A stretch of DNA of 5,454 nt. Origin: Alkalimonas sp. GTDB taxonomy: Bacteria; Pseudomonadota; Gammaproteobacteria; Enterobacterales; Alteromonadaceae. The notes below the pieces were generated by a model. The model did no database searches and was not told where the DNA came from. It was given only the letters and a program-made list of their open reading frames with translations. The stretch covers positions 1 to 5,454 of the forward strand of contig SKGJ01000049.1 in assembly GCA_007117525.1 (NCBI GenBank). The letters run 5' to 3'. This document shows positions 1 through 5,454 of this stretch, piece after piece. Both the position numbers and the translations under genes were made by a program. Position 1 is the first letter of the stretch. Each line of letters begins with the position of its first letter.

Positions 1-1625
1 ACATGTACTACAGCTGGATGCGCGATATTCAGGACTGGTGCATTTCCCGCCAGCTGTGGTGGGGCCATCGCATTCCGGCCTGGTACGACGACAACGGCAA
101 GGTCTATGTCGGCCGCAACGAACAGGAAGTCCGTAGCCAGCATGGTCTGGACGACAGTGTGACACTGCGCCAGGACGAAGACGTGCTGGACACCTGGTTC
201 AGTTCTGGCCTCTGGACTTTCTCTACCTTAGGCTGGCCGGAGCAAACACCGGAGCTGGCACGTTTTCACCCGACCGATGTGCTGGTGACCGGCTTTGACA
301 TCATCTTCTTCTGGGTCGCCCGGATGATTATGATGACCATGCATTTGATTAAAGATGCCGACGGCAAGCCGCAGGTGCCTTTCAAAACCGTGTACGTCAC
401 TGGCCTGATCCGCGATGAAAACGGCGATAAGATGTCCAAGTCCAAGGGCAACGTCATCGATCCGCTGGACTTAATCGACGGCATTGAACTCGATGCGCTG
501 CTGGCCAAGCGCACCAGCAACATGATGCAGCCCAAGCTGGCCGAGAAAATCGCCAAGCAAACCAAAACCCAGTTTCCGGAAGGGATCCAGGCCAGTGGCA
601 CCGATGCGCTGCGCTTTACCCTGGCAGCACTGGCTTCGACCGGTCGCGACATCAACTGGGATATGAAGCGACTGGAAGGCTACCGCAATTTCTGCAACAA
701 ACTGTGGAACGCCAGCCGTTATGTGCTGATGAACACCGAAGGCCAGGATTGCGGCCAAAACGGCGGTGACTGCACCTTGTCGCTGGCCGATGAGTGGATC
801 CTGACCCAGTACCAGCACACAGTGAAAGCGGTGCGCCAGGCGATGGACAACTACCGCTTTGATATGGCCGCCCACACTTTGTACGAGTTTACCTGGAACC
901 AGTTCTGCGACTGGTACCTGGAGCTGACCAAGCCGGTACTGCAACAAGGCGACGAAGCCGCCCAGCGCGGCACCCGCCGCACCCTGGTCACCGTGCTGGA
1001 AAGCCTGCTGCGCTTAATGCACCCCATTATGCCTTTTATGACCGAAACCATCTGGCAGCAAGTCGCACCACTGGCAGGCGTGCAGGGCGACAGCATTATG
1101 CTGCAACCCTATCCTGAGTATCAGGCCGAGGAAGTCAACGACACGGCGCTGCAGGATTTGGAGTGGCTCAAACAGGTGATCCTGGCAGTACGTACCATTC
1201 GTGGTGAGATGAACATCTCTCCGGGCAAGCCGCTGTCGATTTTGCTGCGTCAGCTTAGCAGCGACGAGCTACGCCGGCTGGAGCAAAACCGCAACTTCCT
1301 GCAAGTGATGGCCAAGCTGGAACAGATCACCGTGCTCAGCAGTCAGGACAAAGCGCCGGCCTGTGCCGTGCAGCAAGTCGGCGCCATGGATGTGCTGATC
1401 CCAATGGCCGGCCTGATCGACAAAGACGCCGAACTGGCACGTCTTGGCAAGCTACTGGAAAAAGCCAAGCAGGAACTGGCCCGGGTGGATGGCAAACTGA
1501 GCAACGAGAAGTTTGTCAACAATGCACCCGAGGCGGTACTGGAAAAAGAGAAAGCCAAACAGGCCGAGCTGAAGCTCAGTCTCAGCAAGTTGGAAGCGCA
1601 AATCGAGGAAATCGCTGCGCTCTAA
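1..1625 (+). CDS. valS: Valine--tRNA ligase (ValS), C-terminal part, 5' truncated by window edge
   Basis: Class I aminoacyl-tRNA synthetase that charges tRNA-Val in the cytoplasm. The frame is open from the first base, so the N-terminus (Rossmann-fold start with HIGH motif, most of the CP1 editing domain) lies outside the window. About 540 residues are visible. They begin just before the conserved [15 protein letters not shown] segment, which follows the editing domain. The KMSKS ATP-binding loop is at visible residues 143-147 (bases 429-443). The segment after it ([12 protein letters not shown], then [31 protein letters not shown]) is nearly the same as I recall for E. coli ValS. The anticodon-binding helical domain follows (about residues 260-400). 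The Lys/Glu/Leu-rich C-terminal coiled-coil arm (about 470-540) is characteristic of ValS and contacts the tRNA. If the E. coli length of 951 residues applies, about 411 residues are missing. The gene ends in TAA and is followed after 22 bases by a terminator hairpin. I see no frameshift or missing motif. Confidence 0.98.
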
Positions 1626-1647
1626 CTGCGGGCTATCCGTCCCTGAT

Positions 1648-1671
1648 ACGGCAGCTGCGGCTGCCGTTTTT
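1648..1671 (+). terminator. Rho-independent terminator of valS
   Basis: A perfect 8-bp stem (ACGGCAGC at 1648-1655 pairing with GCTGCCGT at 1660-1667) with a TGCG tetraloop is followed directly by a run of five T (1667-1671) and then seven A (1672-1678). It lies 22 bases after the valS stop. No T run lies on the other side of the stem as read on the minus strand, so it looks one-directional. Confidence 0.9.
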
Positions 1672-1817
1672 AAAAAAACTTCGAGCAATCACTTTAAACA
1701 CTCCCCTGACCATCCAGCCTACCACAGCCATTGAGATCACTTTGCTGTTCCGTTTTTGTTGAAACGCTCCAAGACTAAAAACCTTCTGTTACCGGCTTTG
1801 ACTCCGGTTTTGTGCCC

Positions 1818-1845
1818 TTGCAATCTGAGCTGTCTGCTCTAGATT
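1818..1845 (+). promoter_or_regulatory. Weak candidate sigma-70 promoter for the lipase pair
   Basis: TTGCAA (1818-1823, 4 of 6 matches to the -35 consensus) and TAGATT (1840-1845, 4 of 6 to the -10) are 16 bases apart. They would give a leader of roughly 65-70 bases. A second possible -35, TTGACT at 1798-1803, has no good -10 at the right distance. This is consensus matching by eye and could be chance. Confidence 0.3.
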
Positions 1846-1890
1846 AGGACAGGTCGGACATCAAACCATCGGTTCAGGGAAGCAGTATCG

Positions 1891-1914
1891 AACAACAACA
1901 ACAAACGATAGAGG
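1891..1914 (+). promoter_or_regulatory. AAC-repeat leader and ribosome binding site of the lipase gene
   Basis: Four tandem AAC triplets (1891-1902) run into AAAC and then a GAGG Shine-Dalgarno core (1911-1914), five bases before the ATG at 1920. The leader is almost free of G and T, so it should stay unstructured and leave the start site open. The GAGG decides the ATG at 1920 as the start. Confidence 0.6.
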
Positions 1915-1919
1915 CTTGC

Positions 1920-2975
1920 ATGAAATACATACTCTCCACCGCTGTTTTAGCGGCCACGCTCTGGCACAGCTCAGCCGAAGCCAGCGACTACCCCATAGTG
2001 TTGGTGCATGGTTTCCAACCTGCTCAGCTCGCCAGCAGACCCAACCAAACGGAAGTAGCACAGGATGGCGCCAATTACTGGCAAGATTTCTGGTTGCCTA
2101 AGGCCAGTGCCCGTATCGACTGGCCATCGCATGAACGCATTACCGACCGGATCATCAGCGACTATGCCTGGCCGGTGTTGCAGCAACTGTCGCAACAAGG
2201 CACCTGCCAAAATGGCTGCATCTTTGTGACCCATTCCACCGGCGACCTGGTGACCCGTTACATTCTGGATAATCAGGCTTTATGGCTGCAAAATGCCGGC
2301 CTGCAGCCGCTGAACATTGTTGCCACCCTGGATTTTGCCGGGGCAGGTGGCGGCTCTGAGCTGGCCGATTTGGCCATCAATGTCGCTAACAGCGGCAGCT
2401 GGATTGATGCCACCCTGCGTTTTGCCATCTCGCTGTGGCTGGGTGAAACGCCTTCGCCGGCTAACCTCGGGGTGTTGAATGATTTGCGTGTCAACAGTGC
2501 CCGACAACTGGCCGCTTTTCCAGATGAGCGCATCCCGCGCATTCGTATGGTCGCAGCCAGCAACGATTACTTTGGCACCACGGGATTGTTCCTGCCAGGT
2601 ACCGATGATGGTGTGGTTGCCAGTCACTCCAGCTGCGGCGCTGCCAGCGTGGCAGCCTTTCACAGTTGTTCCAACCAGGTCGGCTTTAATGGCAAAGTCG
2701 CAGCCCAAAGCCAGGCAGTGACCAGCTTTATGCCCTACCACTACCCGATGCTAATGAGCGATAACTACAGCCACAATGGCATCCTGACCGACCGTCAGCG
2801 CGGCCAGGTTACCTTGGCCAATGCGTCGGTCAATTTTACCGATCAAACCGGCTATGGCTTTGACAGCGACGATATCAGCTCAGGCTGGTGGATATTCCGC
2901 TCCACCTATCGGGTGGTGCGCGGCTCGGATCAGTTCAGTTTATCCGAGCTGGTGTATCAGGAGTTGCTGGATTGA
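1920..2975 (+). CDS. Exported alpha/beta-hydrolase, probable triacylglycerol lipase/esterase
   Basis: A 351-residue protein with a Sec signal peptide: MKY, a hydrophobic core, and AEA with likely cleavage after Ala21. It should act in the periplasm or be secreted, perhaps by a type II system (inference). The mature protein starts with a lipase beta strand and oxyanion turn, YPIVLVHGF (24-32). The nucleophile elbow is VTHSTGD with Ser106 as probable catalytic Ser. The acid is probably Asp230 in GTDDGVV (227-233), and the base is His285 in DNYSHNG. The order and spacing of the last two resemble the NDGLV / DNYRMNH segments of Pseudomonas family I lipases. Four Cys (96, 100, 239, 250) fall in two close pairs and could form local disulfides. 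The elbow has Thr instead of the usual Gly two residues before Ser. The stop overlaps the start of the next gene by 4 nt, so the two are probably co-translated. The substrate (triglyceride, phospholipid or other ester) cannot be read from the sequence. Confidence 0.85.
   Translation: MKYILSTAVLAATLWHSSAEASDYPIVLVHGFQPAQLASRPNQTEVAQDGANYWQDFWLPKASARIDWPSHERITDRIISDYAWPVLQQLSQQGTCQNGCIFVTHSTGDLVTRYILDNQALWLQNAGLQPLNIVATLDFAGAGGGSELADLAINVANSGSWIDATLRFAISLWLGETPSPANLGVLNDLRVNSARQLAAFPDERIPRIRMVAASNDYFGTTGLFLPGTDDGVVASHSSCGAASVAAFHSCSNQVGFNGKVAAQSQAVTSFMPYHYPMLMSDNYSHNGILTDRQRGQVTLANASVNFTDQTGYGFDSDDISSGWWIFRSTYRVVRGSDQFSLSELVYQELLD
2959..2963 (+). promoter_or_regulatory. Shine-Dalgarno that decides the TTG start of the lipase partner
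   Basis: AGGAG at 2959-2963 lies inside the last codons of the lipase, eight bases before the TTG at 2972. This is near-optimal spacing. It favours the TTG start over the in-frame ATG at 2888, for which I see no comparable site. Confidence 0.75.
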
Positions 2976-4015
2976 ATAAGGCGTTATTGGTCGCAGCTGC
3001 TGTCCTCAGCTGCCTGCTGCTAGTCTGGTGGCTGTGGCCCACAACAACCGGCACGGCTAAGGTTGCCGGGAAAGCCCCAGCTACTGTCTCTCAGGACAGG
3101 CAGGCCACGGCAAGCCTGGCATCGGTCCAGCACCCCGAGCTCATCCAGTTGGAGCCAGAGCAAGCACCGATGCAGCAACAGCTGCAGTGGCTGGCCAGTG
3201 CTTACGCCGAGGAGATCACCATTCCGTCGTATTCCCGACCGCTAACCACAGCGGATAGCCAGTTGCTGCAGCCCAACCGCTTTATTGCCCAGCCTGTTCC
3301 GCTGAAAGATGGTGCCAGTGCCAGCCTGTTTCCCAGCCAGTACCGTTTTATCTACCCAGAGCCCATCGACATCACGCTGCAACTGCAAGGAATTTCGGTG
3401 CAAGGTGCGACCTTACGTTTGCTGCATGAATGGAGCGGCGAGCAGCTGGCCGAACAGGCGATGCAGCCAACTCAGGACGGCTTTGAGCTGCAACTACCCA
3501 GCAGAGAAAGCTGGGATGGCAATGTCACCGCCGAAGTGCGATTGCATGGCACCACTGAGCCGCTGCTGCTTCGTACCGGCTTTGAAATCAGCGCGCCGGT
3601 CGCGCAGATCACCGGCATCGACAGCAGCTATGGTGAAGGGCCCGATATGGTGATCCCGGTGCAATTGCGGGCAGAGCTGGCCGGCCATTACCGGTTAAGA
3701 GCCAACTTGTTGACTGCCGGGCGCCAGCCGATAGCGGTGCTGACGGCCAGAGCAGCGCTGAAAGCTGGCAGCAATACCCTACACCTAAGAGCGCACCGCT
3801 CGGTACTGCCCGACACAGACGAGCCTTTCTGGCTCACTAGCTTTCAACTGGAACGGCTATCACCTGCCCCAGGGCAACCCACCCGCTACGGCGACTCAGC
3901 CGAACCGGAGTTCCGCTTAGAGCCCTTCTCGCTGCATCAGCTAACCAAAGAACCCTACCAGGCAGACGAGCAGGAGCAACAACGATTGCAGCTGCTGCAA
4001 CAACTGGCGCAATAA
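2972..4015 (+). CDS. Membrane-anchored, beta-rich periplasmic protein coupled to the lipase; unknown function
   Basis: From the TTG start this is a 347-residue protein whose stop is TAA. The start overlaps the lipase stop as TTGA, is preceded by AGGAG, and puts a short MNK n-region directly before one hydrophobic segment (about residues 4-22, rich in Leu/Val/Trp). This gives an N-terminal anchor with the body in the periplasm. Residues 23-60 are an Ala/Thr/Pro/Gln-rich linker. A short helical stretch (about 66-82) leads to a conserved-looking block IPSYSRPLT...PNRFIAQPVPLKDG (84-114) and YRFIYPEPIDITLQL (124-138). Alternating polar/hydrophobic strands then run to about 300, suggesting two Ig-like or similar beta domains. 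It ends in a Gln-rich helix (331-347). Gln is about 10% overall. The layout mimics lipase foldases (Lif), but I cannot see the Lif motif RxxFDYxxSxxGE or a helical extended fold. It recalls DUF4785-type proteins, from memory and not verified. A role in folding, holding or exporting the lipase is inference. Confidence 0.8.
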   Translation: MNKALLVAAAVLSCLLLVWWLWPTTTGTAKVAGKAPATVSQDRQATASLASVQHPELIQLEPEQAPMQQQLQWLASAYAEEITIPSYSRPLTTADSQLLQPNRFIAQPVPLKDGASASLFPSQYRFIYPEPIDITLQLQGISVQGATLRLLHEWSGEQLAEQAMQPTQDGFELQLPSRESWDGNVTAEVRLHGTTEPLLLRTGFEISAPVAQITGIDSSYGEGPDMVIPVQLRAELAGHYRLRANLLTAGRQPIAVLTARAALKAGSNTLHLRAHRSVLPDTDEPFWLTSFQLERLSPAPGQPTRYGDSAEPEFRLEPFSLHQLTKEPYQADEQEQQRLQLLQQLAQ

Positions 4016-4026
4016 GACCTTGCAGC

Positions 4027-4052
4027 AACGGCTTTATGGCCGTTTCTGTTTT
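4027..4052 (+). terminator. Rho-independent terminator of the lipase pair
   Basis: A 6-bp stem (AACGGC at 4027-4032 with GCCGTT at 4039-4044) and a TTTATG loop are followed by a T-rich tail (TTTCTGTTTT, broken by C and G). It begins 11 bases after the stop of the lipase partner gene. An outer 6-bp complement (TTGCAG at 4020-4025 with CTGCAA at 4055-4060) could extend the structure. It separates this pair from the downstream phosphatase gene. Confidence 0.7.
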
Positions 4053-4060
4053 CACTGCAA

Positions 4061-4078
4061 TTGTCATCGCAATGTCAT
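4061..4078 (+). promoter_or_regulatory. Pho box (PhoB binding site) upstream of phoX
   Basis: Two 7-bp direct repeats, TTGTCAT (4061-4067) and ATGTCAT (4072-4078), are separated by exactly four bases (CGCA). The E. coli consensus is CTGTCAT, four mostly AT bases, CTGTCAT. Each repeat matches 6 of 7. The spacer is less AT-rich than usual. The box ends 78 bases before the start codon of a PhoX-type alkaline phosphatase, a typical Pho regulon member. Activation by phosphorylated PhoB under phosphate limitation is therefore the likely control. Confidence 0.85.
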
Positions 4079-4088
4079 AGACTGCAGC

Positions 4089-4094
4089 TAGCAT
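4089..4094 (+). promoter_or_regulatory. -10 element of the phoX promoter
   Basis: TAGCAT matches TATAAT at 4 of 6 positions and starts exactly 10 bases after the Pho box. This is the same spacing as in the E. coli phoA promoter, where the second PhoB repeat stands in for the -35 element. Transcription would start near 4101, giving a leader of about 56 bases. Confidence 0.65.
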
Positions 4095-4106
4095 CCAGGT
4101 TTTTCA

Positions 4107-4125
4107 GCGCAGCTTCAGACTGCGC
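4107..4125 (+). other. Stem-loop in the phoX mRNA leader
   Basis: GCGCAG (4107-4112) pairs perfectly with CTGCGC (4120-4125) around a 7-base loop. It would sit a few bases from the predicted 5' end of the phoX transcript. The following bases (CCTTTGCAGTTT) are a poor terminator tail, so a role in mRNA stability is as likely as attenuation, and it may have no role. Confidence 0.4.
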
Positions 4126-4156
4126 CCTTTGCAGTTTAAAAAAACAGGTAGTTTTT

Positions 4157-5454
4157 ATGACCAAGGCATCGAAACAACACGTATTTGATTTATCAGGCGC
4201 AGAGCCGCAAGCCAACTTTTCTGCCAACCCGGAGTTTTCCGAGGTGCTGGAGAAACGCCTGAATCGCCGCCGCTTCTTGCAAGGCAGTGTGGCGCTGGCT
4301 GTGTCCGGCTTTTTGGGCCAAGGCTTGCTCGGCTGCAGCAGCCAAAGCTCAACGGCTGCCTTGTTGCAGCAACCGGCGGGCTTGCTGGGTTTTGATGCCA
4401 TCCCCATCAATCGTTTTGATACCGTCACCGTGCCTGCCGGCTACCGCACCCAGGTGTTTTTGCCCTGGGGCACACCACTCACCGCCGATGCGCCGGCCTA
4501 CCGGGCCGATGCCAGCCACAGCGCAGCCGAACAAGCCAAACAAGTCGGCATGCACCACGATGGCATGCACTTTTTCCCCATTGATTTAAAGCAAGGCGGC
4601 CAAAGCTCGGACGAAGGCTTGTTGGTGATGAACCACGAGTACGTCGACCCCAACATTCTGCACGCCTTTGGCGGCAAAGGGATCCCGCGCGATAAAGAAG
4701 AAGTGCACAAAGAGCTGGCTGCGCACGGCGTCTCCGTAGCGCACATCAAAAAACAGGCCGATGGCAACTGGCAGTTGCTGCAACAAAGCCCGCTGAACCG
4801 GCGCATTACCGGCCATACGCCGATGGAGTTGACCGGCCCGGTGCGCGGCCATGCCAAGGTGGTCACCAAATTCAGCCCGGATGGCACACGCACCCGCGGC
4901 ACCCTGAACAATTGCGCGCATGGCGTCACGCCTTGGGGCACTTACCTGACCTGCGAAGAAAACTGGGCACTGCTGTTTGTCAATCATCAGCAAGCCATGC
5001 CGCGTGAGCATCGCCGCTACAGCATTGCCGATGAGCACAGCATTTTGCACTGGGAAACCGCCGGGCGCAGCGACGATGCCATCAGCCGTTTCAACGCTAC
5101 CCCTTTTGCCGATAACGCCAGCGAGGATTACCGCAACGAGCCGAACAACTTTGGCTGGATTGTCGAAATCGACCCGTTCAATCCAGACAGCACCCCGGTG
5201 AAACACACCGCCATGGGCCGCTTTGCCCACGAAGGACTTATTTTCGCCAAGCCAGAAGCCGGCAAGCCGCTGGTGGCCTATTCGGGCGATGATGCCCGCT
5301 TTGAGTACATTTACAAATTTGTTTCGGCCAAGCCGTACGACCCGGCCACCGCAGGGCCGCACTTGCTGGATGAAGGCACCCTTTATGTTGCCCGCTACAA
5401 CGAAGACGGCAGTGGCGACTGGTTGCCGCTTGATATTGAGAACGCGGATTTTCA
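4157..5454 (+). CDS. phoX: PhoX-family alkaline phosphatase (DUF839), N-terminal part, 3' truncated by window edge
   Basis: The frame is open from ATG 4157 to the window end, giving 432 complete residues. PhoX enzymes are Ca/Fe-dependent phosphatases that release phosphate from phosphoesters outside the cytoplasm. A long polar n-region (1-35), usual for this family, precedes a twin-arginine motif NRRRFLQG (36-43) and a weakly hydrophobic stretch ending LLGC (Cys60). Export is thus by Tat, which fits cofactor loading before export. Conserved family blocks in order are MHHDGMHFFP (132-141), NHEYVDP (159-165), NNCAHGVTPWGTYLTCEENW (251-270; Cys253 is the candidate metal-bridging Cys known from PhoX structures), R-x-x-HEG (355-360) and YSGDD-x-RFEYIYKFVS (375-390). 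Family members of this type are usually well over 550 residues, so the rest lies outside the window. The ATG has a weak AGG site (4146-4148) eight bases upstream and its own Pho-box promoter. DUF839 proteins of uncertain activity exist, but the Pho box supports a true phosphatase. Confidence 0.93.
   Translation, partial: MTKASKQHVFDLSGAEPQANFSANPEFSEVLEKRLNRRRFLQGSVALAVSGFLGQGLLGCSSQSSTAALLQQPAGLLGFDAIPINRFDTVTVPAGYRTQVFLPWGTPLTADAPAYRADASHSAAEQAKQVGMHHDGMHFFPIDLKQGGQSSDEGLLVMNHEYVDPNILHAFGGKGIPRDKEEVHKELAAHGVSVAHIKKQADGNWQLLQQSPLNRRITGHTPMELTGPVRGHAKVVTKFSPDGTRTRGTLNNCAHGVTPWGTYLTCEENWALLFVNHQQAMPREHRRYSIADEHSILHWETAGRSDDAISRFNATPFADNASEDYRNEPNNFGWIVEIDPFNPDSTPVKHTAMGRFAHEGLIFAKPEAGKPLVAYSGDDARFEYIYKFVSAKPYDPATAGPHLLDEGTLYVARYNEDGSGDWLPLDIENADF

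Follow-up and report, generated by a model that had tools for sequence, protein, structure and literature searches.

The lipase-partner locus

The stretch of DNA analysed here, a 5,454-nucleotide (nt) region of Alkalimonas sp. (assembly GCA_007117525.1, contig SKGJ01000049.1, positions 1 to 5,454 of the forward strand) referred to below as the window, carries two genes that are the subject of this report. The first encodes an exported lipase-like alpha/beta hydrolase of 351 residues (the lipase), and the second a protein of 347 residues (the partner) with a predicted N-terminal membrane anchor, a linker and a beta-rich body. An earlier note on this DNA had described such a hydrolase gene overlapping by 4 nt the gene for an anchor-linker-beta-rich protein, and this description was confirmed. 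A Shine-Dalgarno-like AGGAG within the lipase gene stands 8 nt upstream of the partner's TTG start codon. The host genome assembly is incomplete (2.09 Mb, 71.6% complete). Coordinates of all features are collected in Table 1.

Conservation of the gene pair across genomes

Dozens of species from the sea and from soda lakes carry the pair. We examined 76 loci, comprising 75 named loci sampled with the lipase as query and the window's own, and in every one the partner gene lies immediately downstream of the lipase gene on the same strand. The next-best gene family near the lipase is found in 15 of the 76 at one fixed slot and in 31 of the 76 at any position. The earlier note had regarded rare adjacency to lipases as evidence against a link between the two proteins; the count came out the opposite way. 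At one of these loci, in Arsukibacterium sp. MJ3 (L076, about 5900-6285), the lipase is an internal-deletion remnant and the partner is intact.

Three genome samples were drawn independently of either gene, although there is overlap among them and with the named loci. Among 147 relatives, the partner occurs in 14 and the lipase in the same 14, always adjacent. Among 369 genomes of the class, the partner occurs in five and a full lipase in the same five; a sixth lipase match (G183), a 20.8-bit fragment over 53 positions, was excluded from the pair count. The 394 genomes of the order gave 14 partner and 14 lipase matches: 12 of each make up intact pairs in the same genomes, and the others are remnants. 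All 12 order genomes with an intact lipase thus have an intact partner. The remnants (L138, L139, L140), likewise excluded, are in G697 a broken partner whose neighbouring lipase runs off the end of the contig, in G660 a lipase remnant alone, and in G567 a 24-residue partner remnant alone. In total, 24 intact adjacent pairs were found in 23 genomes, arranged as lipase-partner in 17 cases, partner-lipase in six, and divergently in one. One genome, G288, holds two separate pairs, the second being a paralogous partner-lipase pair (L113, 3982-6341). The partner also occurs on all four large Vibrio or Photobacterium replicons that carry the lipase, three of which belong to near-identical Vibrio strains.

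The 76 loci and the 24 pairs show the partner to be tightly and specifically linked to this lipase type, in line with the coupling described in the earlier note. Two refinements are needed. The note had placed the partner in the position typical of a lipase foldase, but the position is not fixed, since the partner gene can also precede the lipase gene or be oriented divergently from it. The 4-nt coupling is present in Alkalimonas and, among the pairs examined, is confined to that genus rather than general to the pair. That adjacency is kept despite changes in order and orientation speaks for a functional link between the two genes, beyond an inherited neighbourhood. A chance operon neighbour is ruled out by the pairing at every locus, the co-occurrence, and the adjacency in three arrangements. 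The lipase and partner genes are a true pair.

Architecture and predicted fold of the partner

A search with the single partner sequence found 29 homologues at E <= 1e-3; the family features below were read from 45 aligned members. The predicted anchor is followed by a predicted disordered linker rich in Ala, Thr, Gln and Pro, 37 to 46 residues long over the 45 members, then by a conserved segment, two immunoglobulin-like (Ig-like) domains, and a conserved C-terminal tail. All 45 members keep a long hydrophobic N-terminus; in many of them W/F-W-P comes next, in place of a motif of the cleavage type, and anchoring is therefore the more likely fate of this region. The segment at residues 66-115 lies outside all matched Pfam domains, and 14 of its 50 columns reach 90% conservation or more; it is a possible client-binding part. 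The tail is conserved to the same level in 11 of 52 columns.

The body of the predicted model consists mainly of strands and is not helical. The top match, both by Foldseek and by Z, is PDB entry 4KH9, the solved structure of the DUF4785 protein NttD (lpg0956) of Legionella (Z 13.2, rmsd, the root-mean-square deviation, 3.6 over 210 residues; next unrelated chain, Z 11.4). The earlier note's suggestion of DUF4785 thus proved apt, and as modelled, the two Ig-like domains of the partner share the DUF4785 fold. A search of PDB sequences with the partner profile found only 4KH9, at a non-significant E of 0.16, and NCBIfam gave no match for the partner. The third DUF4785 domain, PF20943, is matched at E <= 1 by 39 of the 45 family members (best 3.6e-6); the member from G051 reaches 25.4 bits, and the domain is precomputed in three of the 29 homologues. 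A family search of the window's own genome did not find PF20943. The partner differs from NttD in lacking the N-terminal domain PF16024, which was absent from the window partner and from the matches listed for the 45 members; the anchor, linker and conserved segment stand in its place. NttD is secreted, whereas anchoring is predicted for the partner.

The lipase family

The lipase has a predicted alpha/beta-hydrolase lipase fold with a Ser-Asp-His triad, in which residue roles are assigned from conservation over 38 homologues. Adjacent aspartates D229 and D230 are both invariant; one would be catalytic and the other possibly calcium-binding. At E <= 1, PF00561 is matched by none of the 38 family members, whereas the classical LipA lipases that adjoin the pair in some genomes do match it. 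PF03583 likewise is matched by none of the 38, and a PDB sequence search found no relative of the lipase. Judged by sequence, the client lipase belongs to a family other than I.1/I.2, and many of its members are annotated merely as hypothetical.

Comparison with Lif and other membrane-bound chaperones

Classical lipases of family I.1/I.2 are served by the lipase-specific foldase Lif (also LipB or LipH; Lipase_chap, PF03280). The partner resembles Lif in its gene standing beside that of an exported lipase, in a predicted N-terminal anchor, in a periplasmic body of similar size, and in a predicted disordered linker whose length falls within the 30-55 residues common across 858 Lif homologues (PMC13381987). 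It differs in its mainly beta, Ig-like body (that of Lif is helical), in the sequence family of its client, and in a gene order that varies relative to the lipase. Lipase_chap was absent among the matches listed at E <= 1 for the 45 partner-family members (25 of 27 families), and hhalign against a true Lif gave 0.2%. The identification of the partner as a Lif is rejected on these two grounds, as the earlier note had anticipated. No Lif chain appeared among the matches listed in the partner fold searches, a result that alone excludes nothing.

Genomes that carry the pair also bear on this distinction. In G288, G400 and G495 (L112, L115, L116), the gene order is partner, lipase, a small cupin-like gene, classical lipase, and Lif, with the Lifs scoring 77.4, 81.0 and 81.4 bits, respectively, against Lipase_chap. 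The shared cluster means that two lipase-helper couples coexist there, each with its own lipase. This cluster is compact and lies near mnmE and yidC-like genes. Among ten tested pair-bearing genomes, Lif was found in two (G023 and G288) and not found in eight (G000, G005, G012, G022, G030, G067, G093 and G293), so Lif cannot serve the pair's lipase in those eight. The secretin of the type II secretion system (T2SS), GspD, passed its cut-off in 10 of the 11 genomes with the pair that were tested; the incomplete genome of the window gave only a match below cut-off.

Membrane-bound T2SS chaperones have been defined by a gene adjacent to that of the client, an N-terminal transmembrane helix and a periplasmic domain (PMC4713064). 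The partner has this layout, being encoded next to an exported client, with the helix and the periplasmic C-terminal part predicted from hydropathy only. CpaB, the chaperone of the protease CpaA, is alike in its adjacent gene, predicted N-terminal transmembrane helix, periplasmic domain and lack of Lif similarity; it differs in being described as having an SRPBCC-type domain and in its protease client, where the partner is Ig-like and has a lipase client (PMC4713064). Table 1 of that paper does not include the lipase-partner pair, and the LipH it describes, another lipase with a hypothetical neighbour, carries the PF03583 domain that the lipases described here lack. Among the open-licence papers listed by literature searches, none dealt with the pair. 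The layout, then, is already known; the partner's fold differs both from that of Lif and from the SRPBCC type reported for CpaB.

DUF4785 proteins in Legionella and elsewhere

Among 158 genomes of the class, a genuine PF20943 gene was found in one, that of Legionella jamestowniensis. Its product has all three domains, PF16024, PF20942 and PF20943, and an N-terminus that resembles a cleavable signal peptide. At this locus (L144), the gene for an exported hydrolase (3881-4783) and the DUF4785 gene (4780-5961) overlap by 4 nt, as in the Alkalimonas pair, a layout that suggests a hydrolase-partner role for DUF4785 proteins such as NttD. Because only this one genome had PF20943, the association rests on a single locus. 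In L. pneumophila, the NttD gene comes second in an operon of four genes (PMC5904407), the first of which presumably encodes the same exported hydrolase. The locus tag of a DUF4785 gene in S. maltophilia stands beside that of a hypothetical protein, and expression of the two falls together (PMC12394494). When the Legionella DUF4785 protein was searched against plasmids, no match was found.

The Legionella exported hydrolases, which are DUF7379-like, show HG, THSxG, Asp-Gly and His motifs in the same order as the lipase; among open-licence papers, none was found on DUF7379 and two on DUF4785. The lipase family aligns to the Legionella hydrolase with an hhalign score of 94.8% (E 4.9e-8). However, classical LipA, as a control, scored 88.2% (E 3e-6) against the same profile, and a single Legionella hydrolase sequence scores no better against the lipase profile than classical LipA does. 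Since classical LipA is about as close, the kinship reflects shared alpha/beta-hydrolase ancestry at most, and its value as special evidence is weakened accordingly.

These proteins raise the alternative that lipase and partner are an enzyme and its accessory, substrate-binding subunit, acting together outside the cell or at its surface, which would agree with the secretion of DUF4785 proteins. The order of genes in L. jamestowniensis and the apparently cleavable signal peptide of the DUF4785 protein there fit this arrangement, as does the detection of NttD in culture supernatants (PMC6617341). The long hydrophobic N-terminus kept by all 45 partner-family members, in many with no cleavage-type motif after it, argues the other way, and we consider this explanation very improbable.

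Proposed role of the partner

On balance, we favour with modest confidence the reading that the partner, tethered to the membrane, probably acts in the periplasm as the lipase's own chaperone or escort. The starting points are observations: the pairing of the two genes, which is conserved, their co-occurrence across genomes, the lack of Lif similarity, and the presence of GspD in nearly all genomes tested. In the proposed sequence of events, the lipase would enter the periplasm via Sec. The partner, predicted to be anchored in the inner membrane through a single helix that a flexible linker follows, would capture the incoming lipase, perhaps through the conserved segment ahead of the Ig-like domains, and aid its folding. 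Release of the lipase to the T2SS would follow, with the partner remaining in the membrane; Lif acts in this way on classical lipases.

Several points weigh against this proposal. An inhibitor, a tether or an accessory subunit would be coupled to the lipase just as tightly; the DUF4785 relative NttD is itself secreted; and an NttD mutant had normal supernatant lipase activity (PMC5904407). An anchored inhibitor would silence the lipase in the periplasm, sparing the cell's own membranes until export, and would then stay behind. Obligate pairing, an anchor and an Ig-like fold of the binding type are as compatible with an inhibitor as with a chaperone, and loss of the partner with the lipase kept was not seen in any of the 12 order genomes with an intact lipase (in G697 the lipase is cut by the contig end, and G660 has only a lipase remnant). 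Nevertheless, layout and linker length match known secretion chaperones and not a known lipase inhibitor, and this analysis gave no sign that the lipase harms the cell producing it; we regard inhibition as unlikely. Also rather unlikely, in our judgement, is a partner that tethers or displays active lipase, whether in the periplasm or at the inner membrane, or that serves as a secretion adaptor without helping folding. The predicted anchor and conserved linker would suit a tether, as would the lipase itself, in which reading by eye shows a signal peptide and nothing that would anchor it. Confined to the periplasm, however, a lipase would find little substrate beyond the cell's own lipids, and the Legionella DUF4785 protein NttD is released (PMC5904407).

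If the partner is a chaperone, a broader proposal follows, which we hold only tentatively: that steric foldases tethered to the membrane come in a third structural class, to which the partner belongs. Its members would carry a body of the Ig-like, DUF4785 type on an anchor and linker in the style of Lif, would be devoted to a lipase family outside I.1/I.2, and would occur across Alteromonadales, Vibrionaceae and other Gammaproteobacteria. Steric foldases are rare; work on P. aeruginosa LipH published in 2026 (PMC13381987) recognises just two classes, beside which this would stand as the third. The same anchor-linker layout with an unrelated beta fold would mean that this way of exporting hard-to-fold enzymes has arisen more than once. 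It would explain why lipases of this family may stay inactive when expressed alone, and would offer enzyme makers a co-expression partner. DUF4785, so far without a role, would gain a testable one, and DUF4785 proteins generally, NttD included, would be partners of exported hydrolases.

Features and neighbouring genes in the window

Table 1. Features of the Alkalimonas window, with the evidence for each (pLDDT, predicted local distance difference test; TAT, twin-arginine translocation).
Feature	Position	Strand	Evidence or remark
Valyl-tRNA synthetase gene, 3' end	3-1625		PF10458; precedes lipase gene
Lipase, 351 residues	1920..2975	+	
Lipase predicted Sec signal peptide (residues 1-21)	1920..1982	+	read by eye from sequence
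Lipase nucleophile motif T-H-S-T-G (S106)	2229..2243	+	H105, S106 and G108 in 38/38 homologues
Lipase presumed catalytic Asp, D229 or D230	2604..2609	+	both in 38/38 homologues; role inferred
Lipase presumed catalytic His, H285	2772..2774	+	38/38 homologues; role inferred
Shine-Dalgarno-like AGGAG, within lipase gene	2959..2963	+	sequence
4-nt overlap TTGA (TTG, partner start; TGA, lipase stop)	2972..2975	+	sequence
Partner, 347 residues	2972..4015	+	model pLDDT 88.0
Partner predicted N-terminal membrane anchor (residues 2-22)	2975..3037	+	hydropathy in 45/45 members; model helix 2-20
Partner predicted disordered Ala/Thr/Gln/Pro linker (residues 25-61)	3044..3154	+	pLDDT < 50
Partner conserved segment, helix then extended (residues 66-115)	3167..3316	+	
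Partner first Ig-like domain (residues 116-207)	3317..3592	+	model strands; fold match to 4KH9 and other Ig-type chains
Partner second Ig-like domain, DUF4785_3rd-like (residues 208-295)	3593..3856	+	PF20943 15.6 bits, below cut-off 24.5
Partner conserved C-terminal tail ending in helix (residues 296-347)	3857..4012	+	helix 333-346 in model
Terminator-like hairpin 3' of partner	4027..4044	+	weak: 3 such sites vs 2.6 expected
PhoX-type alkaline phosphatase gene, 3' of pair	4157-5454 (onward)		PF05787, 342 bits; TAT-like signal

A promoter scan found none, and terminator-like sites occur at chance level. The PhoX-type phosphatase gene lies outside the conserved lipase-partner unit. Other Alkalimonas records contain lipases 97% and 94% identical to that of the window.
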